From assembly GCF_900112345.1 (NCBI RefSeq), contig NZ_FOLB01000008.1, positions 1 to 64,000 on the forward strand: 64,000 bases of DNA, written 5' to 3'. This DNA is from Nocardioides terrae. GTDB taxonomy: Bacteria; Actinomycetota; Actinomycetes; Propionibacteriales; Nocardioidaceae. Made by a program: the position numbers and the translations under genes. The notes beneath the pieces are model-generated. The model was not told the origin of the DNA, ran no database searches, and was given only the letters and a program-made list of their open reading frames with translations. Shown here piece by piece: positions 12,937 to 45,683 of this stretch (position 1 is its first letter; every line of letters begins with the position of its first letter).

Positions 12937-12998
12937 GGGAGCATCCTTCGGTCGGAGGTCGGGTCGAGTCGGTCACCGGGTCGGCCGCAAACAGGCTC

Positions 12999-13027: not shown

Positions 13028-13038
13028 ATGCGTATGCA
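13026..13038. promoter_or_regulatory. LacI-family operator O1
   Basis: GTATGCGTATGCA overlaps the -10 end and the start codon. Its reverse complement TGCATACGCATAC occurs exactly at 22322-22334, also over a -10. Related sites are at 14372, 21161 and 21221. Binding there would block RNA polymerase. The LacI-family protein at 21269-22264 is the expected binder (inference). Confidence 0.65.
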
Positions 13039-14362: not shown

Positions 14363-14371
14363 GACTAAGCG

Positions 14372-14388
14372 CTGCATACGTATAGCAG
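14372..14388. promoter_or_regulatory. LacI-family operator O2, before the ABC transporter
   Basis: CTGCATACGTATAGCAG, with a central ATACGTAT palindrome and CTGC/GCAG flanks. It lies 10 bases after the dehydrogenase stop and 88 bases before the binding-protein gene, so the importer can be controlled by the same repressor as O1. Confidence 0.6.
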
Positions 14389-14475
14389 TCCGGACTCGGC
14401 CGGCATAGACCCCGAGCGGCACGCACCGAGGCGTGTCGTCCGCCGCCGCAACGACAGCACCACTTGGGAGAACAC

Positions 14476-15792: not shown

Positions 15793-15819
15793 CGCACGAC
15801 CAGCGGGAGGCACCAGACC

Positions 15820-21122: not shown

Positions 21123-21160
21123 GGGGACTCCTACGGGGTCAGCGGGTCGCGTTCGGGTGC

Positions 21161-21174
21161 GACATACGTATGTC
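21161..21174. promoter_or_regulatory. LacI-family operator O3, perfect palindrome
   Basis: GACATACGTATGTC is a perfect 14-bp palindrome 38 bases before the start of HisD-like 2. Its core CATACGTATG matches O1, O2 and O5. TTTGTCAAG at 21201-21209 reads TTGTCA on the plus strand and TTGACA on the minus strand and may supply -35 elements for both directions. Confidence 0.65.
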
Positions 21175-21220
21175 TTACATGACACTGGCGCGCCGGCCGG
21201 TTTGTCAAGGGTCCTGCGAG

Positions 21221-31597: not shown

Positions 31598-33031
31598 ATG
31601 TCACTCCTGCTGACCGGTGCGACCGTCATCGACGGCGTCACCGACGACGGCGTCGATGGTCTGGCGATCCTGGTGCGAGACGGCCGCATCGTCGCCATCG
31701 GCCGACCTGACGAGCTCGACGTACCGGAGGACACGGAGGTCGTCGACGTCAGTGGGAAGTTCATCATCCCGGGCCTGATGAACGCCAACGTCCACCTCCT
31801 CATCAACATCTTCCTCGAGACGCTCGTCCGGTACGACGGCCGCTACGAGGACCTGATCGCCGAGGCCGCCCAGGTCGCCCTGAAGAGCGGCATGACGACC
31901 GTGTTCGACACGTGGGGGCCGCGGCGCGCGCTCCAGGCGGTCCGCGACCGGATCGACCGCGGCGAGCTGGTCGGCAGCCGCATCCGTTGCGCCGGCAACA
32001 TCATCGGGTTCGACGGCCCGTTCTCCCCGGACTTCGACGGGCGGATTCCCGGCGTGGGGACCGGGCACTTCGTCGACCGCGTCAACGCGACGTGGGTCGA
32101 GAACACCGGACGGCACCTGATGTGGCTCACCCCCGAGGGAGTCGGCGACGAGGTCCGTGACTATCTCGGGCGCGGCATCGACTTCGTCAAGTACGGGTCC
32201 AACGAGCACGGCGGGACCTCCGCCGGTGCCTTCCTCCAGTTCTCGGAGCGCGCGCAGCGCGTCATCGTCGAGGAGGCCCACCGTGCAGGGGTGACCGCCC
32301 AGGCGCACACCGGGACCGTGGAGGGCCTGAGGATCGCGGTCGAGGCAGGTTGTGACCTCGTGCAGCACGCCAACATGACCGGTCCGACCGAGATCCCCCA
32401 GGAGACGCTCGAGCAGTTCGCGCCGAAGGGCTGCGCCGCCACCGTGTTCCCGCTGACCGACCACGGGCGCGACATCCTGAAGAAGTCCATCACCGACTTC
32501 GAGTGGACGATCTGGGCGGCGTCGGACACCAACTGCCGCAACCTCGTCGATGCCGGCGCCAAGATCCTCCTCGCCAACGACGGCGGCATCTTCGCCCGGG
32601 AGGTGATGCAAGAGCCGATGATCGCGGCCACCTGGAACGGACTGCCCGAGGACGAGGCCCTCAACCGCCTGGCGACCGGTCACTTCGTCTGGCTCCGGGC
32701 CATGGAGGAGAAGGGCATGGCGCCCATCGAGCTCCTGCGCGCCGCGACCCGCAACATCGCCGAGGCCTACCAGGTCGACGACGACCTCGGCACGCTCGAG
32801 GCGGGCAAGATCGCCGACATGGTGGTCCTCGACGCGAATCCCCTGCAGGGCGCGAAGAACTACCAGAGCATCCATGCCGTCATCAAGGGCGGCGTGATGG
32901 TCGACCTCGACGCGCTCCCGGAGCAGCCCCTGCTCACCGCCGAGCTTCCTGCCGCGCTCGAGGAGGAGGCCCGCTACAAGCGACCCCTCCACCACGGAGA
33001 GCGCCTGCCCGGATGCCCGGGACACCACTGA
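31598..33031 (+). CDS. Amidohydrolase, imidazolonepropionase-like
   Basis: A 477-residue amidohydrolase-superfamily protein. An N-terminal beta-sandwich leads into P-G-L-M-N-A-N-V-H-L, where the usual HxH is N-V-H. Lys (F-V-K-Y-G), His (A-Q-A-H-T-G and L-V-Q-H-A-N) and Asp (A-N-D-G-G) are kept. Loss of one metal His suggests a mononuclear site. It would open a cyclic amide or split an amide or peptide bond. GGAAGGAAG precedes the ATG. A possible -10 TACGGT (31538-31543) lies 54 bases upstream. Confidence 0.82.
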   Translation: MSLLLTGATVIDGVTDDGVDGLAILVRDGRIVAIGRPDELDVPEDTEVVDVSGKFIIPGLMNANVHLLINIFLETLVRYDGRYEDLIAEAAQVALKSGMTTVFDTWGPRRALQAVRDRIDRGELVGSRIRCAGNIIGFDGPFSPDFDGRIPGVGTGHFVDRVNATWVENTGRHLMWLTPEGVGDEVRDYLGRGIDFVKYGSNEHGGTSAGAFLQFSERAQRVIVEEAHRAGVTAQAHTGTVEGLRIAVEAGCDLVQHANMTGPTEIPQETLEQFAPKGCAATVFPLTDHGRDILKKSITDFEWTIWAASDTNCRNLVDAGAKILLANDGGIFAREVMQEPMIAATWNGLPEDEALNRLATGHFVWLRAMEEKGMAPIELLRAATRNIAEAYQVDDDLGTLEAGKIADMVVLDANPLQGAKNYQSIHAVIKGGVMVDLDALPEQPLLTAELPAALEEEARYKRPLHHGERLPGCPGHH

Positions 33032-33056
33032 GCTCCGCGACGGATCCGAGACACCC

Positions 33057-34331
33057 GTGAACTCCGGAGCTCGTGTCGTCATCGTCGGTGGCGGCGCCGT
33101 CGGGCTCGCGGCGGCGTACTACCTGCAGCGGGAAGGGGCGGAGGTCGTCGTCCTCGATCGTGGGTACGTCGGCGACGAGGCCTCGCGCGGCAACGCGGGA
33201 TGGATCACGCCCATGCTGTCGGCGCCCATCCCGGCCCCCGGGGTGCGGCGGTACGCCGTCCAGGCGATCGGCAGACCGGACTCGCCCGTCTTCATCCCGC
33301 CCCGCGCGGACCTCGGCCTGGCCCGGTGGCTGTGGCGGTTCTGGAAGGCCTGCAACCCCCGGGACTACCACGCCGGCCTCGCCGCGCTGGCCGCCCTCAA
33401 CGCGCGGACCATGCCCCTCTTCGACGAGCTGGTCCGGGACGACGTGCAGTTCTCGATGTGGAAGAAGGGCCTGCTGTTCGCCTTCACGAGCGAGAGCAGC
33501 GCGCAGCACGAGCTCGAGACCCTGCAGCAGCTGGCCCCGTTCGGCTACGACGTGCCCACCGACCTCCTCGACGCGGCCGGCATGAGCCGGCTCGAGCCGA
33601 CGCTGTCGTCGCGGGTAGCCGCCGGCTTCCTGCTCGCCGACGAACGGCACGTGGACCCGCAGACGCTCACCCGAGGGCTCGCGGAGCGCCTGCTCGAGGG
33701 GAAGGCGACCATCCGTGAGGGCCTGGAGGTCACCGACCTCGAGATCAGGGGTGGCCGGGTCGTCGCCGCCCTCGCGGGCGGAGAGCGGATCGAAGCCGAT
33801 CAGGTGCTGCTCGCGGCCGGCGCCTGGACGGAGCCGCTGGCGCGGAAGCTGGGCGTGGACGTCCCGGTCCAGGGTGCCAAGGGCTACAGCTTCAGCCTGC
33901 GACTGGAGCACCCGCCGAGCCATCCGCTCTACCTCGGCGACTCCAAGATCGGCGTCAGCGCCTTCGACGACGGCCGGACCCGCGTCGCCGGCACGCTCGA
34001 GCTCAGCGGGCTGAACACCCGGATCGACCAGCGTCGCGTCGAGTCGATCCACCGGCAGGCCCAGGAGTTCCTCGGCGCCCCGGCCGCCGGCCCGATCGAG
34101 GACGTCTGGGCCGGCATGCGGCCGCTGACCTACGACGGCCTGCCCGTCGTCGGCAGGTCGAACCACTACGAGAACGTCTTCGTGTCGACGGGCCACTCGA
34201 TGCTCGGCATCACGCTGGCGCCGGCCACCGGCGAGGCGGTCGCGGAGCTCATGCTCACCGGCAGGACGCCAGAGGTCCTGCAGCCGTTCTCGCCGGCACG
34301 CTTCCAGCGATCTCGAAGGAGCAGGACATGA
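33057..34331 (+). CDS. FAD-dependent amine/D-amino-acid dehydrogenase (DadA-like)
   Basis: A 424-residue flavoprotein. The N-terminal GxGxxG is V-G-G-G-A-V-G-L-A-A, with the E/D-end L-D-R-G; S-R-G-N-A-G-W-I is the DadA-type FAD contact, and the C-terminal G-H-S-M-L-G-I-T-L-A closes the FAD site. Full length. It would oxidise an amino acid or amine to an imine. The RidA gene that overlaps its end by four bases would then hydrolyse the imine to a keto product and ammonia. GTG start, 26 bases after the amidohydrolase. Confidence 0.88.
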   Translation: MNSGARVVIVGGGAVGLAAAYYLQREGAEVVVLDRGYVGDEASRGNAGWITPMLSAPIPAPGVRRYAVQAIGRPDSPVFIPPRADLGLARWLWRFWKACNPRDYHAGLAALAALNARTMPLFDELVRDDVQFSMWKKGLLFAFTSESSAQHELETLQQLAPFGYDVPTDLLDAAGMSRLEPTLSSRVAAGFLLADERHVDPQTLTRGLAERLLEGKATIREGLEVTDLEIRGGRVVAALAGGERIEADQVLLAAGAWTEPLARKLGVDVPVQGAKGYSFSLRLEHPPSHPLYLGDSKIGVSAFDDGRTRVAGTLELSGLNTRIDQRRVESIHRQAQEFLGAPAAGPIEDVWAGMRPLTYDGLPVVGRSNHYENVFVSTGHSMLGITLAPATGEAVAELMLTGRTPEVLQPFSPARFQRSRRSRT

Positions 34332-34735
34332 ACGTCGAGCTCATCCGCGTCGGGAACGCCCTGGACTTCAAAGACCTGCCGTTGTCGGCCGCCTGCCGGA
34401 TGGGCGACGTCGTACACACGGCCGGCATCCTCCCGATCGACCCGGACAGCGGGAAGCTCGTGGGCGGGAGCATCGAGGAGCAGGCCCGGCTCACGCTGAC
34501 CAACCTCGTCGCCATCCTGGAGCGCGCCGGCTCGTGCCTCGCGCAGGTGGGGATCGTGCGCATCTTCCTGGCCGACATCGCTCGGGACCTCGCCGGGTTC
34601 AACACGGTGTACCAGGAGTTCTTCGCCGACCATCACCCCGCGCGCTACGCGCTCGGGGTCCAGCTGGCGTTCCCCGAGCTGAAGGTGGAGATCCAGGTCG
34701 TCGCCGGCTGCCCGGTAGGGGAGCGGACCGCATGA
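34328..34735 (+). CDS. RidA/YjgF-family imine deaminase
   Basis: A 135-residue Rid protein. G-D-V-V-H-T-A-G-I-L-P and V-R-I-F-L-A-D-I are typical strands, and P-A-R-Y-A-L-G-V near residue 106 holds the position of the RidA arginine, so deaminase function is plausible. Coupled by ATGA overlaps to DadA upstream and a serine hydrolase downstream. It would hydrolyse the reactive imine made by the flavoenzyme. Confidence 0.87.
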   Translation: MNVELIRVGNALDFKDLPLSAACRMGDVVHTAGILPIDPDSGKLVGGSIEEQARLTLTNLVAILERAGSCLAQVGIVRIFLADIARDLAGFNTVYQEFFADHHPARYALGVQLAFPELKVEIQVVAGCPVGERTA

Positions 34736-36144
34736 CCGCACTCGAGTCGTTGCGCGCACCGCTCGCCGACCTCCTCGACCGACAGTCGGAGGCGACCGGC
34801 GTCGCCGGAGCCGTGGTCGGGATCTCGGTGGGCCGCGAGCAGCTCGCGCTCGCCCACGGCTGCGCCAACCTCAACACCGGCCAGGCGTTCACGACGGACA
34901 CCGGCTGGCTGCTGGGCTCGGTGACCAAGGTGCTCACGACCACCGCGTTGCTCCGACTGGTGGAGCGGGGCGCGGTCGACCTGGACGCCCCCGCGCATCA
35001 CTACATCCCTGACCTCAGGCTCGCGGACACCGCGGCCGCAGACGCCATCACGGTGAGGATGCTCCTCAACCACACCAACGGCATCGACGCGGACGACCTG
35101 ATGCCCGACGGCGTGCGCGGCCGCGACGCCAGCAGGTCCTACGTCGCGCACCTGCACCAGGTCGGCTGCCTCTTCGAGCCGGGCGCGGGGGTGCACTACT
35201 CCAACCCCGGGTTCGTGCTCGCCGCGCGCATCCTCGAGGAGCAGACCGGGCTGCCGTACGAGCTGGCCCTCGAGGCCGAGGTGTTCGGCCCGTGCGGGAT
35301 GACCGATGCGACAGCGGTCCAGACGCAGGCGTTTCTGCGGCGTACGGCGATCGGCGCCTTCGCGGCCGAGGAGCCCGGGCGGCTGCGGGCCACCGAGCTG
35401 TTCACGCTGCCCGAGTCCTGCGCGGGGGCCGGTGCGACGCCGATCGTCACCGTCGCGGACATGATCGCCTTCGGGCGGATGCACCTCTGCGGCGGTCGGG
35501 CGGTCGACGGCCGTCGCGTCCTGTCCGAGGAGCTCGTCGCAGCGATGCGGACGCCGACGGTCGACCTGGGCATCCCGCAGGCACCGCCGATCGGGCTCGG
35601 CTGGTGGCTGATCCCCATCAGCGGAACGACGGCGGCATGGCACGGCGGCGGCTCCCTCGGCGGCAGCTCGAGCTTCTGCATCATCCCCGAGCTCGACGCC
35701 GTCATCGTCAGCTTCGTCGCCGGACCGAACGTGCTGCTCAACGACAGCCTCCACACGACCGTCATCGAGCACCTCACCGGACAGCCGGCGGCGCCGCCGG
35801 TCGTCCCCGTACCGACCACACCCGACCCCGGCGTGAGCGGCGAGTACGCCAGCTTCCAGAAGCGGCAGACCGTGACGACGCACGGCGAGAAGCTCCTCGT
35901 CGAGACCGCGACGACGTTCGTCGACGACGACCATCGACGCGTGCTGGAGGCCTACGGCGGCTTCGGCACGACGACCCGGGAGTACGTCGGGATAGCGCCC
36001 GGTCAGTACATGCTCGACGGGACGGACCCGGAGAAGCTGACCGGCTTCTACGGGCGACTGACCCTCCTCGCCGAGCTGCCCGCGGCGCCTGGTCGCCCGC
36101 GCGGTCTGCACACCGCGCTGCGCTTCATGCCCCGGGAGGGATAG
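34732..36144 (+). CDS. Beta-lactamase-fold serine hydrolase (esterase/D-peptidase type)
   Basis: A 470-residue cytosolic protein with no signal peptide. S-V-T-K (catalytic Ser near residue 64), Y-S-N and H-G-G fit class C/penicillin-binding folds acting as esterase, D-aminopeptidase or amidase. A small beta-barrel-like C-terminal domain of about 100 residues follows. Coupled to RidA (ATGA). Its location next to a D-amino acid type oxidase suggests it releases a D-residue or amine from a peptide or amide. Confidence 0.82.
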   Translation: MTALESLRAPLADLLDRQSEATGVAGAVVGISVGREQLALAHGCANLNTGQAFTTDTGWLLGSVTKVLTTTALLRLVERGAVDLDAPAHHYIPDLRLADTAAADAITVRMLLNHTNGIDADDLMPDGVRGRDASRSYVAHLHQVGCLFEPGAGVHYSNPGFVLAARILEEQTGLPYELALEAEVFGPCGMTDATAVQTQAFLRRTAIGAFAAEEPGRLRATELFTLPESCAGAGATPIVTVADMIAFGRMHLCGGRAVDGRRVLSEELVAAMRTPTVDLGIPQAPPIGLGWWLIPISGTTAAWHGGGSLGGSSSFCIIPELDAVIVSFVAGPNVLLNDSLHTTVIEHLTGQPAAPPVVPVPTTPDPGVSGEYASFQKRQTVTTHGEKLLVETATTFVDDDHRRVLEAYGGFGTTTREYVGIAPGQYMLDGTDPEKLTGFYGRLTLLAELPAAPGRPRGLHTALRFMPREG

Positions 36145-36242
36145 GCGGGGAGGCGTCGGTTCTGCCACGATCGGGTCCAGGACCCCGGGACATCCGGCCA
36201 CCCTGACCGGTTCGCCTGACCGAGGTCCGCGGAAGGAACGCG

Positions 36243-37562
36243 ATGAGCCGGCCGCTGGCAATCACCCATGCGACGGTGGTCACCGGTGACGCGCGAGGCA
36301 CCCTCCTCGAGGACCGGACGATCACCGTCGACGACAGCGGCCTCATCACCACGGTCGCCCCGACCGCCCAGGTCGAGGTGCCGGTCGGGGCTCGCGTCAT
36401 CGATGCGACCGGCAGGTTCGTCCAGCCCGGTCTCATCAACGCGCACGCCCACCTCTTCTCCGACGGGAAGCCGCTGAAGCCGGTGCTCGCGGACCCGCGG
36501 GTGGGGACGCTCGTCGCCCGCTTCCTCCGCGGCCCGATCGGCCAGCGCTGGCTGCTCGGGAAGACGAGGAACGCCGTCGAGACGCAGCTCAACACCGGGG
36601 TCACCACGATCCGCAGCGTGGGCGACCCCGGCTACGAGGTGGTCCAGGTCGACAGGGAGATCCGGGAGGGGCGACTGCTGGGTCCGCGCCTGATCCCGTC
36701 CGGTCCGCTGCTGGCCATCCCGGGCGGACACGGGGCGCCACAGATCGCGCTCATCGGTGCCGACGCGGACACGGTGCGCAAGCACGTCCGCAGGAGCCTC
36801 AGCAGGGGCGTCAGGGCCATCAAGATCTCCGCCACGGCCGGTGTCACCGACGCCAAGGAGGTCGGGTACGCCGGACGCCCGGAGATGACCGAGGCGAACA
36901 TGCGCGTCATCTGCGAGGAGGCACACCAGGCAGGCGTCCTGGTCGCCGCCCATGCCCAGGGCGCCGACGGCATCCGTGCCGCCCTGCGGGCCGGCGTGGA
37001 CACCATCGAGCACGGCGCGAACCTGACCGACGACATCATCGACCTGTTCAAGAACAACCCGAGCTCGCTGCGTGGCTTCTCGGCGCTCATCCCGACGCTG
37101 ATGGCGTGCCTCCCGCTGGTCAAGCTCGACCGGGCGATCACCGGTGCCAACGAGGTGGCCAAGGTCAACGCGGAGATGATCTTCGAGGAGATGCTCGGAG
37201 GCATCCGCATCGCCTTGGAGTGCGACATCCTGCTCGGCATGGGCACCGACTCGGCCCTCACCTTCGTCACCCACTACAACACCTGGCGCGAGCTCGACTT
37301 CCTCATCCGGTACGCCGGCCTCACCCCGGCGCAGGCGCTGCACGCCGCCACCCAGGCCAACGCCCGCATCCTCGGTGTGGAGGACGTCACCGGCGCCGTC
37401 GAGCCGGGCCGCGCGGCCGACCTCGTCGTCACCTCCGCGAACCCGCTCACCGACATCCGCACCCTCGACCACCCCATCAGCGTGGTCGTCCGCGGGCACG
37501 TCATCGACCACCCGAAGGTCGAGCGGTTCGCCGAGCTCGACCAGCTGATCGACCAGTTCTGA
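36243..37562 (+). CDS. Amidohydrolase (prolidase/imidazolonepropionase-like) with complete metal site
   Basis: A 439-residue amidohydrolase. All ligands are present: A-H-A-H-L-F, I-K-I-S (Lys), A-A-H-A-Q-G, I-E-H-G-A-N and G-T-D-S. This contrasts with the N-V-H variant at 31598. It could split a second amide or a dipeptide-like bond in the same route. AAGGAA precedes the ATG. It ends convergent with the RidA gene, 21 bases away. Confidence 0.87.
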   Translation: MSRPLAITHATVVTGDARGTLLEDRTITVDDSGLITTVAPTAQVEVPVGARVIDATGRFVQPGLINAHAHLFSDGKPLKPVLADPRVGTLVARFLRGPIGQRWLLGKTRNAVETQLNTGVTTIRSVGDPGYEVVQVDREIREGRLLGPRLIPSGPLLAIPGGHGAPQIALIGADADTVRKHVRRSLSRGVRAIKISATAGVTDAKEVGYAGRPEMTEANMRVICEEAHQAGVLVAAHAQGADGIRAALRAGVDTIEHGANLTDDIIDLFKNNPSSLRGFSALIPTLMACLPLVKLDRAITGANEVAKVNAEMIFEEMLGGIRIALECDILLGMGTDSALTFVTHYNTWRELDFLIRYAGLTPAQALHAATQANARILGVEDVTGAVEPGRAADLVVTSANPLTDIRTLDHPISVVVRGHVIDHPKVERFAELDQLIDQF

Positions 37563-37583: not shown

Positions 37584-38012
37584 TCAGCTCGGTCGAAGGA
37601 GGCGCTCGTCGGGGATGACCGCGACGCCGAGGATCTCGATCATCGCCTCGGGCTGCCACAGGCAGGTGGTGCCGATCCCGGCCATCGCCGGGTAGACCGG
37701 GCCGGCGAGCTCGCGCCAGACCCTGCCGATCTCGCGCCCGTGCGCCTGGTAGTCGGGGATGTCGGTCAGGTAGATCGTGATCGAGACCAGGTCCTCGGGG
37801 ACGCCGCCCGCCTCGCGCAGCGTCGCGAGCACGTTGGAGAAGGCCTGCCGGAACTGCTCGACGATCCCGCCCGGGACGATCCGCATGTCCTTGTCGAGCG
37901 CCGTCTGGCCGGCGAGGTGGAGCGTGTTGCCGCTCAGCGTGCCGTGGGAGAAGCCGCTCGGCTCGGCGAGCGTCGCGGGGTTGATCGCCACGGGGGTGAG
38001 GTCGGTCGTCAT
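37584..38012 (-). CDS. RidA-family protein, divergent from the aromatic-CoA operon
   Basis: A 142-residue Rid-family protein (L-S-G-N-T-L-H-L-A-G-Q-T; I-T-I-Y-L-T-D). In place of the RidA arginine strand it has Y-P-A-M-A-G-I-G-T-T-C-L-W, so it belongs to a non-archetypal Rid group and may act on another imine or enamine. It is divergent from FAH across 57 bp with one operator. In an anthranilate-CoA route it could hydrolyse the enamine left by ring reduction (inference). -10 TACCGT lies six bases before its ATG. Confidence 0.82.
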   Translation of the reverse strand: MTTDLTPVAINPATLAEPSGFSHGTLSGNTLHLAGQTALDKDMRIVPGGIVEQFRQAFSNVLATLREAGGVPEDLVSITIYLTDIPDYQAHGREIGRVWRELAGPVYPAMAGIGTTCLWQPEAMIEILGVAVIPDERLLRPS

Positions 38013-38018
38013 GCGGCA

Positions 38019-38063
38019 ACGGTACGACGCCTATTGACAGTTGCACAACGTTCGTGCAGAAAT
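38019..38063. promoter_or_regulatory. Divergent leaderless promoters around an inverted-repeat operator
   Basis: Plus: -35 TTGACA (38034-38039), 18 bp, weak -10 AGAAAT (38058-38063), six bases, ATG 38070. Minus: -35 TTGTGC (38048-38043), 18 bp, -10 TACCGT (38024-38019), six bases, ATG 38012. TGCAC-N7-GTGCA (38042-38058), with AACGTT inside, covers the minus -35 and the plus spacer. The PaaX-family protein at 44853 is a candidate binder. Confidence 0.6.
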
Positions 38064-38069
38064 TGAAAT

Positions 38070-38885
38070 ATGCGACTGGCGACCGTCCGAACCGACTCCG
38101 GGCCCCGTGCCGCCGTCTGGCGCGAGGACGGCTGGCACGCGCTGCCGGCCCCCGACCTCAGTGCCTACCTGGCCGCCCACACGACCGCCGAGGCCGACGG
38201 CCTCGCCGGCGACGCGCTGCCCGGCGCCGTACCGCTGCTGCCGTTGCCGGCGCCCGGCAAGGTGATCTGCTGCGGGCTCAACTACGCCGACCACATCACC
38301 GAGATGGGCCGCGAGCTGCCGAGCCACCCCACCCTCTTCGCCAAGTACGCCGACACCCTGGTCGGCCCCGACGCCGAGATCCGGCTGCCCGACGGCCTCG
38401 ACGTCGACTGGGAGGCCGAGCTGGCCGTGGTCGTCGGCACCGATATCCGCAACGCCGGTCGCGAGCAGGCCGGGGCGGCGATCGCCGGCTACACCGTCGC
38501 CAACGACATCTCGATCCGGGACTGGCAGAACCGCACGCTGCAGTGGTTCCAGGGCAAGGCCTGGGACGCGAGCACGCCGCTGGGCCCCGTCGTCGTCACG
38601 CCCGACGAGATCGACCCGGTCGCCGGCGTCGAGGTGACCTGCCGGGTCAACGGCGTCGAGCGCCAGCGCGGCAACACCAAGACGCTGGTGTTCGACAGCG
38701 CCGCGCTGCTCGCCTACGTGTCCACCTTCACCGTGCTGCGACCCGGGGACGTCGTCCTGACCGGGACGCCGGGCGGCGTCGGGATGGGCATGACGCCCCC
38801 GACCTACCTGGCCGACGGTGACCTCGTCGAGGCCGAGGTCACCGGCATCGGCTCGATCGCCGCCACCATCCGCTTCAGCCGCTGA
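38070..38885 (+). CDS. Fumarylacetoacetate-hydrolase-family enzyme
   Basis: A 271-residue FAH-fold protein. C-C-G-L-N-Y-A-D-H opens the catalytic domain at about residue 68. D-W-E-A-E-L-A and Y-T-V-A-N-D-I-S hold metal Glu/Glu/Asp; L-T-G-T-P-G-G-V closes the site. The family cuts C-C bonds of beta-diketones or decarboxylates oxo acids. As first gene of the aromatic-CoA operon it may cleave the oxo ring or an oxo acid formed after it. The fit to a known step is not established. Confidence 0.88.
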   Translation: MRLATVRTDSGPRAAVWREDGWHALPAPDLSAYLAAHTTAEADGLAGDALPGAVPLLPLPAPGKVICCGLNYADHITEMGRELPSHPTLFAKYADTLVGPDAEIRLPDGLDVDWEAELAVVVGTDIRNAGREQAGAAIAGYTVANDISIRDWQNRTLQWFQGKAWDASTPLGPVVVTPDEIDPVAGVEVTCRVNGVERQRGNTKTLVFDSAALLAYVSTFTVLRPGDVVLTGTPGGVGMGMTPPTYLADGDLVEAEVTGIGSIAATIRFSR

Positions 38886-38938
38886 CCAACCGCCCGGCTC
38901 CGCGCAGCTGAGCCGGCCCGACAGACAGGACACCGCCC

Positions 38939-39424
38939 ATGGATCCCGACCTCAGCAACTACGTGCTCGAGGGCGACCCCTCGTCGTACGCCAACGAGAG
39001 CGGGCTGGTCGTCCCGGTCGTCACCCGCGGCGGCCACGAGCCCGACCTGACCGGTCAGAGCGAGGGCGCGACCCGGATCAGCGGCGTCAGCATCCAGCAC
39101 ACCCCGGCGACGAAGCTGTGGTTCGGCAAGGTGCACAACCTGGCCGGATACCGCTCCGTCCCGCATCACCACGGCGAGGCCGAGACCGGCGGCTACGTGC
39201 TGTCCGGCCGCGCTCGGATCTACTTCGGCGAGCGGTTCGAGGACTACATCGACATGTCCGAGGGTGACTGGGTGTTCGTGCCGCCGTTCATGCCGCACGT
39301 CGAGTGCAACCTCGACCGCAACAACCCGCTCACCTGGATGACCGCCCGCACCCCCGAGAACATCGTCGTCAACCTGCCGCAGGTCGGCGACGAGGACCTG
39401 AAGGACTGGGTGAGCCGGCCGTGA
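38939..39424 (+). CDS. Cupin-domain protein
   Basis: A 161-residue single-domain cupin. Motif 1 is H-H-H-G-E-A-E with a preceding Y-R-S-V-P; motif 2 is G-D-W-V-F-V-P-P-F-M-P-H. Metal ligands are intact, so it may be a small dioxygenase, isomerase or a regulator of the pathway. Its stop overlaps the thioesterase GTG by four bases. Confidence 0.82.
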   Translation: MDPDLSNYVLEGDPSSYANESGLVVPVVTRGGHEPDLTGQSEGATRISGVSIQHTPATKLWFGKVHNLAGYRSVPHHHGEAETGGYVLSGRARIYFGERFEDYIDMSEGDWVFVPPFMPHVECNLDRNNPLTWMTARTPENIVVNLPQVGDEDLKDWVSRP

Positions 39425-40320
39425 CCGCCACCTCCGCGATCTTCACCGACGCCATCACGCTCAAACCCGCCGAGGCTGAGGTCTTCGACGTCGCCTTCAC
39501 GGCGACCACCCAGCCGTGCCCGTGGCCCAAGGCCTACGGCGGCGACATGGTCGCGCAGGCGCTCGTCGCCGCGATGCGGACCGTCGGCGACAAGGAGGTC
39601 CACTCGATGCACTCCTACTTCATGCGCCCCGTCGACATCGGCGCCGAGGTCAGCTACGAGGTGGAGGTCCTGCGCGACGGCCGCGGCTACGCGACCCGGC
39701 AGGTGCGCGCCTACCAGAACGGCAAGCCGGCCTACGTCAGCCTGGTCGGCTTCGCGGCGGGCGAGCCCGGCGGCAGCTTCTCCGCCGAGATGCCGGCCGG
39801 GCTCCCGGACCCGGAGACGCTGCCGACCTCGGCCGACTACCTCGCCGACCGCTCCGGCGCCACGATGACCGAGACGTCCAAGGCCTACTGGTCGGGCGGG
39901 CGCAGCTTCGACATGCGCCACGTCCCCGGCCCCGTCTACGTCAGCGTCGACGGCGGCACCGCGCCGCACCAGGCCGTGTGGGTCAAGCCGTACGACGCCC
40001 TGCGCGACGTGGACCCGCTGACGACCGCGCAGCGCGACACCGCGGCCCTGGCCTACGTCTGTGACTACACGATCCTCGAGCCGGCGCTGCGGGCGCTCGG
40101 CGTGGCCTGGGCCGACCCGGGCCTGGTGACTGCCAGCCTCGACCACGCGATGTGGTTCCACCGCCCGGTCCGGATGGACGACTGGCTGCTCTACGCCCAG
40201 GAGGCGATCTCGGTGGAGTCCGGCCGCGGCTCGGCGGTGGGCAGGTTCTTCGCCCGCGACGGCGCCCACGTCGCGACCGTCGTCCAGGAGGGCATGATCC
40301 GGACGGGGGCGGCCTCGTGA
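39421..40320 (+). CDS. Acyl-CoA thioesterase II (TesB-like, double hotdog)
   Basis: A 299-residue thioesterase with two hotdog halves. W-P-K-A-Y-G-G-D-M-V-A-Q-A-L and H-S-M-H-S-Y-F-M-R-P lie in the first; D-H-A-M-W-F-H-R-P in the second. It would release CoA from stalled or overflow acyl-CoA in the pathway. The GTG start overlaps the cupin stop and its own stop overlaps the CoA ligase start (GTGA at both). Confidence 0.87.
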   Translation: MTATSAIFTDAITLKPAEAEVFDVAFTATTQPCPWPKAYGGDMVAQALVAAMRTVGDKEVHSMHSYFMRPVDIGAEVSYEVEVLRDGRGYATRQVRAYQNGKPAYVSLVGFAAGEPGGSFSAEMPAGLPDPETLPTSADYLADRSGATMTETSKAYWSGGRSFDMRHVPGPVYVSVDGGTAPHQAVWVKPYDALRDVDPLTTAQRDTAALAYVCDYTILEPALRALGVAWADPGLVTASLDHAMWFHRPVRMDDWLLYAQEAISVESGRGSAVGRFFARDGAHVATVVQEGMIRTGAAS

Positions 40321-41960
40321 GCGAGCTGGCCCCCACCGGCTACGTCGACACCTTCGCCCGGGACCACCTGCCGGCACCGGAGCTGTGGCCGACCCTCGAG
40401 TTCACCACCGAGCTGCTCGACTACCCCGAGCGCCTCAACGCCGGCGCCGAGCTGATCGACGCCGCCGTGGCGACGTACGGCCCCGACCGGCCGGCGCTGC
40501 GCACGCCCGACGGCACCGTGTGGACCTACGGCGAGCTGTGCGCCCGGGCCAACCAGGTCGCGCACGTGCTGGTCGACGACCTCGGCCTGGTCCCCGGCAA
40601 CCGCGTGCTGCTGCGCTCGCCCAACAACCCGTGGACGGTCGCCGCGTGGCTCGGCGTGCTGAAGGCCGGCGGCATCGTGGTGACCACGATGGCGGCCCTG
40701 CGGACCGCCGAGCTCACCCCCATCGTCGCCAAGACGCGACCCGCCGTCGCGCTCGTCGACCACCGGTTCGTCGACGACGTCCTGGCGGTCCGCGACGACA
40801 GCGCGCCCGATCTCACGGTGGTGACGTACGGCGGCCCGGCGGCCGACGACCTGGCCCGACGCATCGAGGGGAAGCCGACCGGGTTCGCGGCCGTCGACAC
40901 CGCCGCCGATGACGTGGCGCTGTTCGGGCCCACCTCGGGCACGACCGGGATCCCGAAGATCACCACGCACTTCCACCGCGACATCCTCTCGATCGACAAC
41001 ACCTTCGGGCGCACGACGCTGCGGCTCGAGCCCGACGACGTGGTGGCGTGCACGGCGCCGTTCGCGTTCACCTTCGGCCTCGGCATGCTGGTGGTCTTCA
41101 CGCTGCGCGCCGGCGCGTCAGCGCTCCTGACCGAGGCCGCCGCCCCGGCGGAGCTCGCCGACCTCGTCGACGAGCACGGTGTCACGGTCCTGGCGACCGC
41201 CCCGACGGCGTACAAGCAGATCCTCAAGGCGGGCAAGGTCGGCCGGCTCGCCGGGCTGCGCGCCGCGGTGACCGCCGGCGAGCACATGCCCCAATCCACC
41301 TGGGAGCAGCTGCACAGCGAGCTCGGCATCAAGCCGATCGACGGCATCGGCGCCACCGAGATGCTGCACATCTTCATCTCCGCGGCCGGCGACGACATCA
41401 GGCCCGGCGCCACCGGCCGGCCGGTGCCCGGCTACCGCGCCACGATCCTGGACGCCGACGGCAACGAGGTCGGCCCGGGGGTCGAGGGCAGGCTCGCGGT
41501 GATCGGCCCGGTCGGGTGCCGCTACCTCGACGACGACCGCCAGCGCGGCTACGTGGTCAACGGCTGGAACGTCACCGGCGACACCTTCCTTCGCGACCCC
41601 GACGGCTACTTCTGGTACTGCTCGCGCACCGACGACATGATCGTCTCCTCCGGCTACAACATCGGCGGCGCTGAGGTGGAGGCGGCGCTCGACCTGCACG
41701 AGGACGTCGTCGAGTCGGCCGTGGTCGGCGCACCCGACCCCGACCGCGGCGCGATCGTCTGCGCGTTCGTGGTGCTGCGCGACGGCGTCGAGCCGAGCGC
41801 GGCCAAGGCCACCGAGCTCCAGGACCACGTCAAGGGCCACCTGGCGCCCTACAAGTACCCCCGCGACGTGCGGTTCGTGTCAGCGCTGCCCCGCAACATC
41901 AGCGGGAAGCTGCAGCACTTCAAGCTGCGCCAGATCATCGAGGCGGAGGCCGGAGCATGA
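40317..41960 (+). CDS. Aryl-CoA ligase, probably 2-aminobenzoate-CoA ligase
   Basis: A 547-residue ANL-family enzyme. The P-loop is T-S-G-T-T-G-I-P-K, then G-I-G-A-T-E-M, N-V-T-G-D-T-F and the C-terminal I-S-G-K-L-Q with the adenylation Lys. It makes an acyl-AMP and then an acyl-CoA. It belongs to the benzoate/aminobenzoate-CoA ligase style in length and order. The choice of anthranilate as substrate rests on the overlapping downstream gene, the 2-aminobenzoyl-CoA monooxygenase/reductase type fusion; salicylate or benzoate is the alternative. Confidence 0.8.
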   Translation: MSELAPTGYVDTFARDHLPAPELWPTLEFTTELLDYPERLNAGAELIDAAVATYGPDRPALRTPDGTVWTYGELCARANQVAHVLVDDLGLVPGNRVLLRSPNNPWTVAAWLGVLKAGGIVVTTMAALRTAELTPIVAKTRPAVALVDHRFVDDVLAVRDDSAPDLTVVTYGGPAADDLARRIEGKPTGFAAVDTAADDVALFGPTSGTTGIPKITTHFHRDILSIDNTFGRTTLRLEPDDVVACTAPFAFTFGLGMLVVFTLRAGASALLTEAAAPAELADLVDEHGVTVLATAPTAYKQILKAGKVGRLAGLRAAVTAGEHMPQSTWEQLHSELGIKPIDGIGATEMLHIFISAAGDDIRPGATGRPVPGYRATILDADGNEVGPGVEGRLAVIGPVGCRYLDDDRQRGYVVNGWNVTGDTFLRDPDGYFWYCSRTDDMIVSSGYNIGGAEVEAALDLHEDVVESAVVGAPDPDRGAIVCAFVVLRDGVEPSAAKATELQDHVKGHLAPYKYPRDVRFVSALPRNISGKLQHFKLRQIIEAEAGA

Positions 41961-44335
41961 GGATCGCGATCGTCGGCGGCGGGCCCGGCGGGCTCTACTT
42001 CGCCGCCCTGATGAAGACGCTCGACCCGAGCCACGACATCACCGTGTGGGAGCGCAACGCGCCCGACGACACCTTCGGCTTCGGCGTGGTGTTCTCCGAC
42101 GAGACCCTCGGCAGCATCGAGGGCGCCGACCCGGTCATCCACCAGCGGATGGAGAGCCGGTTCGCGCGCTGGACCGACATCGACGTGGAGTTCAACGGCA
42201 CGCCGTTCACCGTCGGCGGCCAGGGCTTCGCCGCGATGAGCCGCAAGGAGCTGCTGCAGATCATGCAGGAGCGGGTCGCCGAGCTCGGCGTCACCGTGCG
42301 CTACCGGACGCAGGCGCCCGACCCGGACGAGCTGCGGGCGTCGTACGACCTGGTGCTGGCGGCGGACGGGCTCAACTCCGCGGTGCGGACGAAGTACGCC
42401 GACGTGTTCCGGCCGACGCTGGACCGGCGGCACAACAAGTACATCTGGTTCGGCACCGACCTGGTCTTCGAGGCGTTCCAGTTCTTCGTCAAGCAGACGG
42501 AGTGGGGCACCATGCAGATCCACGGCTACCCCTACTCCGACCAGGGCTCGACGTTCATCGTCGAGATGCACGAGGACGTGTGGCGTCGCGCGGGTCTGGA
42601 CCGGACCGAGGGCGAGGTCTTCGCGCCGGGCGTCTCGGACGACTACGCGGTGGAGCGGATCAAGGAGATCTTCGCCGGCGAGCTGCAGGGGCACGAGATC
42701 CTCACCAACAACTCCAAGTGGATCAACTTCAACACCGTGCGCAACGAGCGCTGGCACGACGGCAACGTCGTGCTCCTCGGCGACGCCGCCCACACCGCGC
42801 ACTTCTCGATCGGCTCCGGCACCAAGCTGGCGATGGAGGACGCGCTCGCCCTCGCCGCCTGCCTGCACGAGCACCCTGACGTCGAGACGGCGCTGGCGGC
42901 CTACCAGGCCGAGCGCAAGCCGGTGGTCGAGTCGACCCAGCGCGCCGCCCAGGCGTCGCTGGAGTGGTTCGAGAACATCGGGATGTACGCCGACCAGGAC
43001 CCCGCGCAGTTCGTCTTCAACCTGCTCACCCGCTCGCGGCGCATCACCCAGGAGAACCTGCGCGATCGCGACGCCGAGTTCGCGGCGCTGATGGAGGCCG
43101 AGTTCGCGCGCCACCAGGGCTCGGCGGACGAGACCGCGCCGGCGATGTTCCAGCCGGTGCGGATCGGCGAGCTGGAGCTGAAGAACCGCGTCGTGCTTTC
43201 GCCGATGGACATGTACGTCGCCACCGACGGCGTGCCCACCGACTTCCACCTCGTGCACCTCGGCTCCAAGGCGCTCGGCGGGGCCGGCCTGGTGATGACC
43301 GAGATGACCTGCGTCTCACCCGAGGGCCGGATCACCCTTGGCTGTCCCGGGCTGTGGAACGACGAGCAGCTGGCGGCGTGGAGCCGCGTCACCGCCTTCG
43401 TCCACTCGCAGTCGACCGCGAAGATCGGCATGCAGCTGGGCCACTCCGGTCGTAAGGGCTCCACGAAGCTGATGTGGGAGGGCATGGACGAGCCGCTCGA
43501 GGAGGGCAACTGGGAGGTCATCGGGCCGTCCGCCCTGCCGTACGGCGCGGACTGCCACGTGCCGCGCGAGGCGACCCGGGCCGACCTCGACGCGGTCGTG
43601 GCGGACTTCGTCGCGTCCGCCGAGCGGGCGGTGGCGGCGGGCTTCGACCTGGTCGAGGTGCACGCCGCGCACGGCTACCTGCTCAGCTCGTTCCTCTCGC
43701 CCGTGGCCAACCACCGCACCGACGAGTACGGCGGCTCGCTGGAGAACCGGCTGCGCTTCCCGATCAAGGTCTTCGCCGCCGTACGCGCGGCCGTGCCGGC
43801 CCGGATCCCGGTCACCGTCCGCATCTCGGCGACGGACTGGCTGCCGGACGGCAACACCGACGAGGACGCCGTCGAGATCGCCCGCGCCTTCGTCGCCGCG
43901 GGCGCCGCGGCGATCGACGTCTCGTCGGGGCAGGTCAGCAAGGACGAGAAGCCGGCGTTCGGCCGTTCCTACCAGACGCCGTTCGCCGACAAGATCCGTC
44001 ACCGCGTCGCCGAGCCGGCCGGGGTGAAGGTCATCGCGGTGGGGGCGATCTCGTCGTACGACGACGTGAACTCGATCCTGCTGGCCGGCCGTGCCGACCT
44101 GTGCGCGCTGGGCCGCACCCACCTCTACGACCCGAGCTGGACGCTGCACGCGGCGGCCGAGCAGGACTACCGAGGGCCCGGCGCGCAGTGGCCGGTCCCG
44201 TGGGAGGCGGGACGGCGCAGGCCGCCGACCTCGCGCACCGACAAGGTCCCGCCGCGGCTGCAGCTCCTGCGGGACGGAGCGTCCGAGTCGGTCCATCTCC
44301 GCTGGGTGCCGTCCGCGGCGCGTGACCGGGTCTGA
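41957..44335 (+). CDS. 2-aminobenzoyl-CoA monooxygenase/reductase-type fusion
   Basis: A 792-residue flavin fusion. The N-terminal part (about 1-385) is a class A flavin monooxygenase: G-G-G-P-G-G-L-Y-F and L-G-D-A-A-H-T-A-H-F-S-I-G-S-G. The C-terminal part (about 395-760) is an old yellow enzyme: L-K-N-R-V-V-L-S-P-M, H-A-A-H-G-Y-L-L-S-S-F-L-S-P and Y-G-G-S-L-E-N-R. This order and length match ACMR of Azoarcus evansii, which hydroxylates and then reduces the ring of 2-aminobenzoyl-CoA. Salicylyl-CoA 5-hydroxylase is a shorter relative or a similar fusion. ATG overlaps the ligase stop by four bases. Confidence 0.85.
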   Translation: MRIAIVGGGPGGLYFAALMKTLDPSHDITVWERNAPDDTFGFGVVFSDETLGSIEGADPVIHQRMESRFARWTDIDVEFNGTPFTVGGQGFAAMSRKELLQIMQERVAELGVTVRYRTQAPDPDELRASYDLVLAADGLNSAVRTKYADVFRPTLDRRHNKYIWFGTDLVFEAFQFFVKQTEWGTMQIHGYPYSDQGSTFIVEMHEDVWRRAGLDRTEGEVFAPGVSDDYAVERIKEIFAGELQGHEILTNNSKWINFNTVRNERWHDGNVVLLGDAAHTAHFSIGSGTKLAMEDALALAACLHEHPDVETALAAYQAERKPVVESTQRAAQASLEWFENIGMYADQDPAQFVFNLLTRSRRITQENLRDRDAEFAALMEAEFARHQGSADETAPAMFQPVRIGELELKNRVVLSPMDMYVATDGVPTDFHLVHLGSKALGGAGLVMTEMTCVSPEGRITLGCPGLWNDEQLAAWSRVTAFVHSQSTAKIGMQLGHSGRKGSTKLMWEGMDEPLEEGNWEVIGPSALPYGADCHVPREATRADLDAVVADFVASAERAVAAGFDLVEVHAAHGYLLSSFLSPVANHRTDEYGGSLENRLRFPIKVFAAVRAAVPARIPVTVRISATDWLPDGNTDEDAVEIARAFVAAGAAAIDVSSGQVSKDEKPAFGRSYQTPFADKIRHRVAEPAGVKVIAVGAISSYDDVNSILLAGRADLCALGRTHLYDPSWTLHAAAEQDYRGPGAQWPVPWEAGRRRPPTSRTDKVPPRLQLLRDGASESVHLRWVPSAARDRV

Positions 44336-44349
44336 GACCCTTGCCGACC

Positions 44350-44856
44350 GTGAGCGTGCCTGAGCCGACGACCGGGGCCACGACCGAGCACGGCCGGCCG
44401 CGCGCCGTCCTCCGCACCCGCGTGGAGTGGATCGACACCGACGCCGCCGGCATCTACCACAACAGCACGGTGATGCGGTTCGTCGAGGCCGCCGAGGCCA
44501 GCCTCATGCGCGAGCGCGGCCTCGACGGCTACTTCCCGGTCGCGCCCCGCGTCCGCTTCGAGGTGGACTTCGAGGCGCCGCTGTTCTTCGGCCAGGACGT
44601 CACCACCGTCGTCGAGCTGGCGCGGCTGGGCACCTCGTCGATGCGTTTCGAGTTCGAGGTGTGGGGCGAGGAGCACGACGGCCGGCCGCGCGGGCGGGCG
44701 GCCCGGGGCGCCTACGTCACCGTGCACATCGGCACGAACCACGCAGGCGCCGGGCACCGGGACGGCGCCGGCAGCGTGCCGTGGCCGGTCGAGTGGGTCG
44801 CGGCGCTGGGCGGGACTGGCGAGGCCGACGGATCGGCAGAGGCTTCGCGCGCATGA
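44350..44856 (+). CDS. 4-hydroxybenzoyl-CoA thioesterase-family hotdog protein
   Basis: A 168-residue single-hotdog thioesterase. R-V-E-W-I-D-T-D-A-A-G-I-Y-H-N holds the catalytic Asp of the 4HBT family. Chosen start is GTG 44350; TTG 44341 is three codons earlier. It would release CoA from aromatic or ring-opened acyl-CoA. The stop overlaps the PaaX gene by four bases. Confidence 0.85.
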   Translation: MSVPEPTTGATTEHGRPRAVLRTRVEWIDTDAAGIYHNSTVMRFVEAAEASLMRERGLDGYFPVAPRVRFEVDFEAPLFFGQDVTTVVELARLGTSSMRFEFEVWGEEHDGRPRGRAARGAYVTVHIGTNHAGAGHRDGAGSVPWPVEWVAALGGTGEADGSAEASRA

Positions 44857-45683
44857 GCGAGGCGCCCGAAGGCGCGGTCCGCGGGCCGCAGCCGCGTACG
44901 ACGATCGTCACGTTCCTCGGCGCCGTGGTGCGCCCGCTCGGCGGTTGGATGCCGATCGCGGCCGCGGTCGACCTCCTGGGGGAGGTCGGCATCGACGCGC
45001 CCAGCGTGCGCACGGCCGTCTTCCGGCTGAAGAAGAACGGCTGGCTCGATCCCGCATCCCGCTCGGGAGCTCGGGGTTACCTCCTGACCGAGGAGGCGGA
45101 CGCCACGCTCGCCGCCGGCGACGAGGTGATCTGGCACGCCCGCAAGCCCGCCGACCTCTCCGACGGCTGGTGCATCGTCCACTTCGGGGTGCCGGAGTCG
45201 ATGCGGGCCAAGCGTCACCAGCTGCGCTCCCACCTGACCAGCCTCGGCTTCGGCAACATCGGGACCGCGCTGTGGATCGCGCCGGCGCGGATGCGGCAGG
45301 CGGCCGAGCGCGCCATCGAGGACCTCGGGCTGGGCGGCTATGCCGCCATCTTCGTCGGCGACTACTTCGGCCCGCAGGACCTCACCCGGGTGCTGTACGA
45401 CTCCTGGGACCTCGCGGCGATCGACCGGGGCTACCGCGACTTCATCGACGCCTACCGCTCGCAGTTCCGGCAGCTCTCCGAGCTGGCCGGGGCCGAGGCG
45501 TTCGCGGCGTACCTCACGATGCTGGACCGGTGGCGCAAGCTTCCCTTCCGCGATCCCGGCCTCCCGCGCGAGGTGCTCGCCGCCGACTGGCCGGCCGGCG
45601 CGGCGGTGGCGCTCTTCGAGGAGCTGGTCGCGGTGCTCGAGGGGCCGGCCCTCGACCACGCCCGGGCCTCCTGGGGCGGCTGA
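44853..45683 (+). CDS. PaaX-family transcriptional repressor
   Basis: A 276-residue regulator. The N-terminal winged helix has P-S-V-R-T-A-V-F-R-L-K-K-N-G-W-L, then a Y-L-L-T-E stretch and the middle PaaX domain W-C-I-V-H-F-G-V-P. PaaX proteins respond to aryl-CoA esters and repress aromatic-CoA operons, which fits its place as last gene of this cluster. It likely senses the CoA ester made by the ligase and binds the repeat at 38042-38058 (inference). Confidence 0.87.
   Translation: MSEAPEGAVRGPQPRTTIVTFLGAVVRPLGGWMPIAAAVDLLGEVGIDAPSVRTAVFRLKKNGWLDPASRSGARGYLLTEEADATLAAGDEVIWHARKPADLSDGWCIVHFGVPESMRAKRHQLRSHLTSLGFGNIGTALWIAPARMRQAAERAIEDLGLGGYAAIFVGDYFGPQDLTRVLYDSWDLAAIDRGYRDFIDAYRSQFRQLSELAGAEAFAAYLTMLDRWRKLPFRDPGLPREVLAADWPAGAAVALFEELVAVLEGPALDHARASWGG

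Follow-up and report, generated by a model that had tools for sequence, protein, structure and literature searches.

The window, a stretch of 64,000 nucleotides of Nocardioides terrae DNA (contig C9 of a 3.92-Mb genome), holds at positions 37584-45683 eight genes that we read as a PaaX-controlled operon, with a divergent Rid gene, for the aerobic breakdown of anthranilate via coenzyme A (CoA) esters and a lower module of an actinobacterial kind; we put the probability of this reading at about 0.65. The genes encode a Rid protein, an FAH-fold hydrolase, a single-domain cupin, a TesB-type thioesterase, an AMP ligase, a 2-aminobenzoyl-CoA monooxygenase/reductase (ABM), a 4HBT-type thioesterase and a PaaX regulator (Table 1). 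All eight frames are open and match their families, in agreement with the original prediction for this stretch, which was made from the sequence alone and named both the genes and the pathway correctly. It missed the two points of interest, i.e., the exchange of one lower module for another among ABM clusters and the absence of the catalytic arginine from the Rid protein. Judging by sequence comparison, the system is of a kind widespread among actinobacteria, which varies on the Azoarcus pathway by having a different lower module.

ABM clusters carry one of two lower modules and, among the loci examined, never both. The module of most lineages consists of enoyl-CoA hydratase and acyl-CoA dehydrogenase, in many cases with a short-chain dehydrogenase/reductase, whereas a single actinobacterial clade, to which the window belongs, has the cupin and TesB and usually FAH; Rid goes with either module. 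We compared 135 ABM loci, i.e., the window, 15 plasmid loci, the best 80 of 541 genome_contigs matches, and 39 loci from a phylum sample of 396 genomes (41 ABM matches, 40 of them foreign; G287 was left out of the neighborhood count). Neighboring genes were called by tblastn at 60 bits, or at 150 bits for enoyl-CoA hydratase, acyl-CoA dehydrogenase and short-chain dehydrogenase/reductase (SDR). Loci with TesB were designated type A, and loci with enoyl-CoA hydratase and no TesB were designated type B; 9 of the 135 loci belong to neither. The 89 type A loci contain Rid (89), TesB (89), cupin (85), ligase (85), PaaX (79), FAH (61) and 4HBT (44), and none of them has a hydratase, dehydrogenase or SDR match over 150 bits. 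The 37 type B loci contain hydratase (37), dehydrogenase (35), Rid (34), ligase (32), SDR (19), PaaX (14) and FAH (1), with neither cupin nor TesB in any of them. Because TesB and the hydratase define the types, the independent contrasts are the cupin (85/89 versus 0/37) and the dehydrogenase (0/89 versus 35/37); it should be noted that the loci are related, so that these counts do not represent independent events. The recurrence of the TesB-ABM cluster with Rid in 89 of the 135 loci indicates that the grouping of these genes is not a matter of chance. Within the 28 kb of the window from 28001 to 56000, no enoyl-CoA hydratase or acyl-CoA dehydrogenase match was found at E 1e-5. From these comparisons, it is likely that the cupin/TesB module replaces the enoyl-CoA hydratase/acyl-CoA dehydrogenase module.

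Weaker matches in type A loci were left uncounted: L087 (hydratase 98, dehydrogenase 120 and SDR 101 bits), L020, L023 and L025 (hydratase, 105-117 bits), L038 (hydratase, 49 bits), L050 (dehydrogenase, 50 bits), and weak SDR matches in many loci; L020 and L025 also have 3-hydroxyacyl-CoA dehydrogenase matches of 156 and 166 bits, uncounted as well. Among the nine loci with neither module, four (L140, L152, L153 and L159) are pieces shorter than 13 kb, and L141, L152 and L159 have a dehydrogenase match. Since the phylum sample alone holds just three type A loci, an order-wide sample of 342 genomes was taken, which contains 20 ABM copies in 19 genomes and overlaps with the best-80 loci (L015 and L213 are identical). 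The cupin lies within 3 kb of twelve of these copies, a cupin of the Cupin_7 family adjoins Rid in six (L209-L214), and the remaining two (L207 and L208) lack a cupin and carry Rid together with hydratase, dehydrogenase and SDR. For six of the twelve cupin copies (the window and L217-L221) and for all six of L209-L214, it was seen directly that hydratase and dehydrogenase are absent. The cupin follows ABM closely: at an identity of at least 73%, it occurs in 3 of the 396 phylum genomes, exactly those with an ABM at least 80% identical, and at an identity of at least 77%, in 12 of the 342 order genomes, all with ABM.

The Cupin_7 proteins bear on the history of the module. In three of the 135 loci, and only in these (L014, L015 and L056), the usual cupin is absent and a 133-aa protein adjoins Rid; this protein belongs to Pfam Cupin_7 (E 8e-22), whereas the cupin of the window reaches Cupin_2 and Cupin_1, and it keeps the metal motif of cupins (HEH...E...H). 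Relatives of the substitute with 76-77% identity adjoin Rid in L209 and L210. A tree of 37 ABM rows taken by tblastn shows a single module switch, with bootstrap/SH-aLRT support of 92/94 for the hydratase/dehydrogenase branch, and places the Cupin_7 bearers in two separate clades inside type A; in another ABM tree (36/89 type A rows, SH-aLRT only), type A is one clade with a support of 99. The most likely history on these sequences is that the lower module switched a single time, the hydratase kind giving way to the cupin kind, and that the cupin was twice exchanged for a cupin of another family. Such a double exchange speaks for a catalytic step performed by a metal cupin. Near the branch where the module changed, there are type B loci (L124-L132, of family f3, and L167, from Streptomyces) in which PaaX is kept but hydratase and dehydrogenase stand in place of the cupin module.

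The substrate of the operon is very probably anthranilate derived from tryptophan, as sequence kinship and gene neighborhoods suggest. The ABM aligns with NF006101 along residues 1-769, i.e., as a full-length fusion, at 1223 bits over a cut-off of 1078, which bears out the earlier assignment to the Azoarcus type; its closest named relatives, among the best 80 of 541 genome_contigs matches, are from Nocardioides and Pimelobacter (88-89%). Residues Tyr420, His569, His572, Tyr574 and Arg622 of the old yellow enzyme (OYE)-type reductase are kept in 89/89 type A ABM proteins, the window's included; we take the His-x-x-His-x-Tyr motif, the active-site Tyr and the Arg to have the catalytic roles that they have in OYE. 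Given this conservation, a reduced ring is expected, not a hydroxylated aromatic. The top Protein Data Bank (PDB) match of the ligase is 4wv3, an “Anthranilate-CoA ligase”, and the benzoate-CoA ligase family TIGR02262 is matched at 319.8 bits, short of its cut-off of 375.25. Kynureninase and tryptophan 2,3-dioxygenase genes are adjacent on contig C20 of the same genome, which can therefore probably make anthranilate. Other ABM clusters likewise adjoin anthranilate-forming genes: kynU in one, the alkylquinolone dioxygenase gene aqdC1 in another, and, in a third, tryptophan dioxygenase accompanied by a gene of the class V aminotransferase fold, which we read as kynureninase; one type B cluster holds both kynU and tryptophan dioxygenase. 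The ligase is 65% identical over 538 columns to the one encoded at locus L005, on the linear plasmid pAL1 that Arthrobacter sp. Rue61a carries, which by gene order should be ARUE_113p00220, and both this ligase and ARUE_c41730 are reported to have formed anthraniloyl-CoA in assay (PMC3534580). The choice of anthranilate in the original prediction is thus supported by this kinship, by 4wv3 and by the kynureninase/tryptophan dioxygenase pair.

It is very unlikely that salicylate, and not anthranilate, is the substrate. The NCBI name of NF006101 is “salicylyl-CoA 5-hydroxylase”, and a salicyl-CoA route reportedly exists in Streptomyces WA46. Against this stand the presence of Rid, a deaminase family, in 89/89 type A loci and the kynurenine-pathway or alkylquinolone genes that adjoin several clusters; moreover, anthranilate is the one acid named for the assay of the pAL1 ligase, and the text of PMC3534580 gives 5-hydroxyanthranilate, gentisate, catechol and salicylate as compounds none of which supports growth of Rue61a. 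Other genes near anthranilate clusters were seen as well. Locus L014 has, at 12717-16361, luciferase-like monooxygenase, flavin reductase and PF04199 cyclase genes (by Pfam), with look-alikes, not every gene in each, recognized by eye in L015, L056, L017, L024 and L039; such genes may provide a route from indole or indoleacetate to anthranilate. Indolepyruvate ferredoxin oxidoreductase genes lie near the cluster in L008 (14845-18674), and similar-looking frames were seen by eye in L209 and L210.

The Rid protein shares the family (PF01042) and the conserved Glu with the RidA subfamily of 2-iminobutanoate/2-iminopropanoate deaminases and differs from it in having Met110 at the position of the catalytic Arg (Arg105 equivalent). 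This difference extends to all 122 ABM-linked Rid proteins aligned (88 from type A loci and 34 others), which have Met in 115 cases, Ile, Val, Leu or Ser in 7, and Arg in none, and Glu126 is kept in 122/122. In RidA kin, the Arg binds the substrate carboxylate, and its change to Ala nearly abolishes imine hydrolysis (PMC4433059). The loss of the Arg would nevertheless fit a deaminase, because the substrate here would bear a CoA thioester and not a carboxylate. Rid genes are also present in 5 of 6 annotated proteobacterial ABM clusters, and against five proteobacterial Rid proteins linked to ABM, the window's protein has identities of 31-36%. On sequence grounds, we lean towards Rid as the deaminase of the ABM product. 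The earlier suggestion that Rid could in principle hydrolyze the enamine has to be amended as to the catalytic Arg, whose absence would require a changed mode of acting on the substrate. Alternatively, Rid might not be a deaminase, the enamine being hydrolyzed spontaneously and Rid serving as a scaffold, tautomerase or protector; the 122 proteins without Arg agree with this possibility, which we hold to be the weaker one given the near-constant presence of Rid (89/89 type A and 34/37 type B loci), the invariant Glu126, and the loss of a carboxylate-binding residue that is expected for a thioester. Loss of the Arg unique to ABM-cluster Rid proteins was considered and ruled out, as Ser and Ala take its place in two further Rid proteins that this genome encodes (of its four other Rid proteins, one has Arg, one Ser and one Ala, and L198 is unaligned).

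The reactions that we propose are as follows. The ligase would convert anthranilate to 2-aminobenzoyl-CoA, as shown for the pAL1 enzyme, and ABM would hydroxylate and reduce this ester to 2-amino-5-oxocyclohex-1-ene-carboxyl-CoA, a reaction shown by others for Azoarcus and suggested here by the conserved residues. Rid, the presumed deaminase, would hydrolyze the enamine to 2,5-dioxocyclohexane-carboxyl-CoA and ammonia; anthranilate-grown Rue61a cells are reported (PMC3534580) to contain anthraniloyl-CoA and the CoA esters of C7H7NO3 and C7H8O4, the latter being the formula of 2,5-dioxocyclohexane-carboxyl acid. The metal cupin may then, with O2, cut the C1-C2 bond of the beta-keto thioester in the manner of the acetylacetone-cleaving dioxygenase Dke1, which acts on beta-diketones forming cis-beta-keto-enolates and places one O of O2 in each product (PMC4019311). 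The ring-opened product would be an acylpyruvoyl-CoA, i.e., a 2-oxo thioester of the composition C7H8O6 as acid, from which TesB would strip the CoA to yield succinylpyruvate (4,6-dioxoheptanedioate), and FAH, as an acylpyruvate-type hydrolase, would split the latter into succinate and pyruvate. The scheme is balanced in its atoms (C7H8O4 + O2 = C7H8O6; + H2O = C3H4O3 + C4H6O4). The 4HBT thioesterase would, as our guess, probably free CoA from stalled anthraniloyl-CoA. The last three steps (cupin dioxygenation, TesB and FAH) are tentative in exactly this form, and so is the whole account with two oxygenations on CoA esters, a retuned Rid, a cupin, TesB and an acylpyruvase, a module replaced once and a cupin replaced twice.

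The FAH protein fits the role of an acylpyruvase in its residues: among 63 FAH neighbors (61 type A, L151 and L153), Glu115, Glu117 and Lys163 are kept in 63, Asp146 in 62, and His75 and Glu78 in 61 each. His75 and Glu78 presumably correspond to the dyad of the acylpyruvase FAHD1. The named kin of the protein include 2,4-diketo acid hydrolase and acylpyruvase, and 8gsr (2,4-diketo-3-deoxyrhamnonate hydrolase), 6fog (FAHD1) and 6jvv (maleylpyruvate hydrolase), with 168, 92 and 96 bits, share its conserved catalytic-type residues, although they rank below its top PDB rows, i.e., the predicted hydratase 6j57 and decarboxylases. None of the equivalog cut-offs was reached, the best equivalog being 2,4-didehydro-3-deoxy-L-rhamnonate hydrolase (NF053535, 191.8 of 500 bits). 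In type A, FAH is close in 49 loci and distant or broken in 12, of which 11 have it beyond Rid, adjoining PaaX; it appears to be frameshifted in L006. FAH homologues exist elsewhere in 16/16 searched genomes, out of the 28 with an FAH-less cluster, and are too common to be informative.

The original prediction had called FAH a C-C hydrolase and suggested that the added enzymes deaminate and open the ring. In a hydrolytic scheme of this kind, water would be the reagent with which FAH breaks C1-C2 of the deaminated ester, 2,5-dioxocyclohexane-carboxyl-CoA; the resulting 4-oxopimeloyl-CoA would pass to TesB or to general beta-oxidation, and the cupin would be an isomerase, tautomerase or helper. 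A second O2 would be unnecessary, and FAH-fold enzymes are known as a family to break C-C bonds of diketones; furthermore, L215, in a genome without an ABM match, has an operon-like group (6461-9644) of cupin, SDR, a gene of the gentisate/5-aminosalicylate dioxygenase family and FAH, where a cupin 64% identical to the window's next to a ring-cleaving dioxygenase family member fits a role other than dioxygenase. Nonetheless, we consider hydrolytic opening by FAH unlikely, and less likely than an acylpyruvate role, because the FAH residues, in the roles that we presume for them, match those of 2-keto-acid kin while the ring substrate is no 2-keto acid, and because the cupin (or Cupin_7) and TesB are nearly constant, whereas FAH is absent within the fetched flanks of 28 of the 89 type A loci and varied in the others.

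With respect to the cupin itself, the metal motif (His76, His78, Glu82 and His120) is intact and invariant in 59 aligned copies. Its profile has 12 PDB matches at E 0.01, all of the oxalate decarboxylase type (best E 7e-5). The structural model (mean pLDDT 74) has fold matches that include 3bu7 (Z 10.5) and 5flj (Z 10.1), with storage proteins and decarboxylases at similar Z, and gentisate and salicylate dioxygenases are among them. The last-named matches agree with another alternative, an aromatic route. In it, ABM would go no further than 5-hydroxyanthraniloyl-CoA, from which a thioesterase would release 5-hydroxyanthranilate, or gentisate if the amino group has been lost; the cupin would then cut the ring as a dioxygenase, with FAH acting as a maleylpyruvate-type hydrolase. 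Gentisate-type routes do use thioesterase, cupin and FAH kinds of enzyme, and 5-hydroxyanthraniloyl-CoA is reported under limiting NADH (PMC3534580). We find this aromatic route improbable: the OYE residues are invariant in type A, none of the PDB sequences that match the 161-aa cupin at E 0.01 is a gentisate dioxygenase, and Rue61a, with the same cluster, grows on neither 5-hydroxyanthranilate nor gentisate (PMC3534580), for which failing uptake may also account. Like the window's cupin, Dke1 (3bal) is a small single-domain metal cupin, and the beta-keto-enolate chemistry is proposed by analogy with it; 3bal is not among the 12 PDB matches, it matches the Cupin_7 protein of L014 marginally (E 0.047), and a 9-row Cupin_7 profile gave no improvement, Dke1 being absent from the 60 rows listed of its 62 at E 0.01. 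The idea that the Cupin_7 substitute is kin to Dke1 was set aside, as the profile gave generic cupin matches and no clear kinship. Beyond L215, the next relative of the cupin (L216, 58% identity), also in a genome without an ABM match, has acyl-CoA dehydrogenase and SDR neighbors, with a flavin monooxygenase recognized by eye. At 20 places with members of the wider cupin family (37-45% identity), the profiles recognized no pathway genes next to the cupin save a ligase or SDR match in three, so that these neighborhoods give no hint of function.

Several observations weigh against the proposed pathway. The strongest single one is L215, since a gentisate-dioxygenase-family gene (TIGR02272, 263 bits, below the cut-off of 442.1) is already present there beside the cupin, although the same locus repeats the pairing of cupin and FAH. 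No dioxygenase is found among the 12 PDB sequence matches of the cupin, and its fold matches are generic, with dioxygenases among many cupins. Rid lacks the Arg that has been named the determinant of Rid deaminase activity (PMC5619798), and the loss of this residue alone does not show a special substrate, because two further Rid proteins of the genome are without it. The module pattern has its exceptions: the FAH-less type A loci counted above, L209 with no TesB or FAH match, L210 with no FAH match, L039 (type A) with neither kind of cupin and no ligase, and a cupin gene (L011:14538-14990) that Ruegeria pomeroyi has among its type B genes, where tblastn with the cupin of type A gave no match at E 1e-5. 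In addition, the best 80 of the 541 genome_contigs loci are biased to type A, and the experiments in the accessible literature bear on the ligase step of a homologue of this cluster.

The seven plus-strand genes from FAH to PaaX very likely form one operon, because a 4-base overlap joins the genes at four junctions (cupin/TesB, TesB/ligase, ligase/ABM and 4HBT/PaaX) and the other gaps are short (5 bases between ABM and 4HBT, 53 between FAH and cupin); the divergent Rid gene lies 57 bases from FAH. These lengths depend on the chosen start codons, which are GTG for TesB and the ligase and TTG for 4HBT. The TesB-type protein matches TIGR00189 at 186 bits, under its cut-off of 292.85.

Table 1. 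Features of the putative anthranilate operon and its divergent Rid gene in the window.
Feature	Position	Strand	Family match or motif
Rid (YjgF/YER057c/UK114) protein	37584..38012	-	PF01042, 70.0 bits (gathering cut-off 27.3)
Divergent Rid/FAH intergenic region	38013..38069	.	promoter-like TATTGACA at 38032-38039; palindrome-like ACGTTCGT at 38048-38055
FAH-fold hydrolase; proposed acylpyruvate (succinylpyruvate) hydrolase	38070..38885	+	PF01557, 234 bits (cut-off 23.9)
Single-domain cupin, 161 aa; proposed dioxygenase on beta-keto thioester	38939..39424	+	PF07883, 29.2 bits (cut-off 27.2)
TesB-type double hotdog acyl-CoA thioesterase	39421..40320	+	PF02551, PF13622, PF20789
AMP ligase; putative anthranilate (2-aminobenzoate)-CoA ligase	40317..41960	+	PF00501, PF13193
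ABM (FAD monooxygenase fused to OYE-type reductase)	41957..44335	+	NF006101; FAD_binding_3 (PF01494) and Oxidored_FMN (PF00724)
4HBT-type hotdog thioesterase, accessory	44341..44856	+	PF03061/PF13279
PaaX-family regulator, presumed repressor	44853..45683	+	PF07848, PF20803, PF08223 (N-terminal, middle and C-terminal PaaX domains)

The intergenic region between Rid and FAH may hold a PaaX operator lying over a promoter, which is the simple reading of a motif shared among type A clusters and of PaaX in 79 of these 89 clusters. The motif ACGNNCGT occurs in 70 of 87 Rid/FAH (or Rid/cupin) intergenic regions of type A, compared to a mean of 5.7 and a maximum of 14 in 50 dinucleotide shuffles; the combination TTGAC-N6..14-ACGNNCG occurs in 58 of the 87, compared to a mean of 0.2 and a maximum of 1, and it should be noted that such counts overstate the evidence, because the regions are related by descent. 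The PaaX-type regulators MeqR1 and MeqR2 of Rue61a are said to have an operator consensus of their own, for which no paper turned up. The window's PaaX matches that of the phenylacetate operon (TIGR02277) at 147.3 bits and does not reach the equivalog cut-off of 264.55. No Rfam family matched the window at gathering scores.

Next to the cluster, at 31598-37562 (+), the window has genes for an amidohydrolase, a DAO-type FAD oxidoreductase, another Rid in which the Arg is present (PAR), a beta-lactamase-fold hydrolase and a second amidohydrolase; this set may break down an amide resembling an amino acid, with imines cleared in the classical way. Farther away, there are a MASE1-PAS-GGDEF-EAL protein (3083-6148) and a histidinol-dehydrogenase-family protein (19800-21185) beside a short-chain dehydrogenase-like frame recognized by eye (19045-19863).

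The 2-aminobenzoyl-CoA pathway past the monooxygenase/reductase is poorly known, and the two alternative modules supply candidate genes for it. A pathway curation effort omits tryptophan breakdown via anthraniloyl-CoA monooxygenase/reductase for lack of knowledge (PMC9007349). A literature search, with most subscription papers outside its reach, found no published function for the additional genes; the words “cupin” and “fumarylacetoacetate” are absent from the main text of PMC3534580, and PMC13101512 does not name anthranilate. If the cupin is a dioxygenase acting on a beta-keto thioester, this would be an unusual ring-opening reaction, and if Rid acts on the enamine of a CoA thioester, the arginine rule would not hold throughout the Rid family.

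The gene set is already known from plasmid pAL1, where a protein search of plasmids found an ABM 70% identical to that of the window. The Rid, FAH, cupin and thioesterase genes, which had first been taken as new, are thus not peculiar to one genome, a possibility ruled out by the pAL1 cluster together with the 89 type A loci; what holds of the predicted complete actinobacterial version is that its lower part has extra genes instead of beta-oxidation-type ones. On pAL1/pARUE113, which also carries quinaldine genes (PMC3534580), Rid, FAH, cupin, TesB, ligase and ABM have the order and orientation seen in the window, and PaaX and the hotdog thioesterase are also there. The differences are that two PaaX genes flank the block on the plasmid, compared to one PaaX in the window, and that the downstream PaaX and hotdog genes are in reversed order, with PaaX on the opposite strand. 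The Azoarcus pathway was compared via eight proteobacterial loci of the Azoarcus evansii type (L011, L012 and L161-L166), with the Azoarcus cluster itself outside the comparison. These clusters have ABM in 8/8 by selection, the ligase in 7/8 and Rid in 7/8, and all eight have enoyl-CoA hydratase, acyl-CoA dehydrogenase, SDR and MarR, whereas the window has the cupin, TesB, FAH and PaaX in their place.

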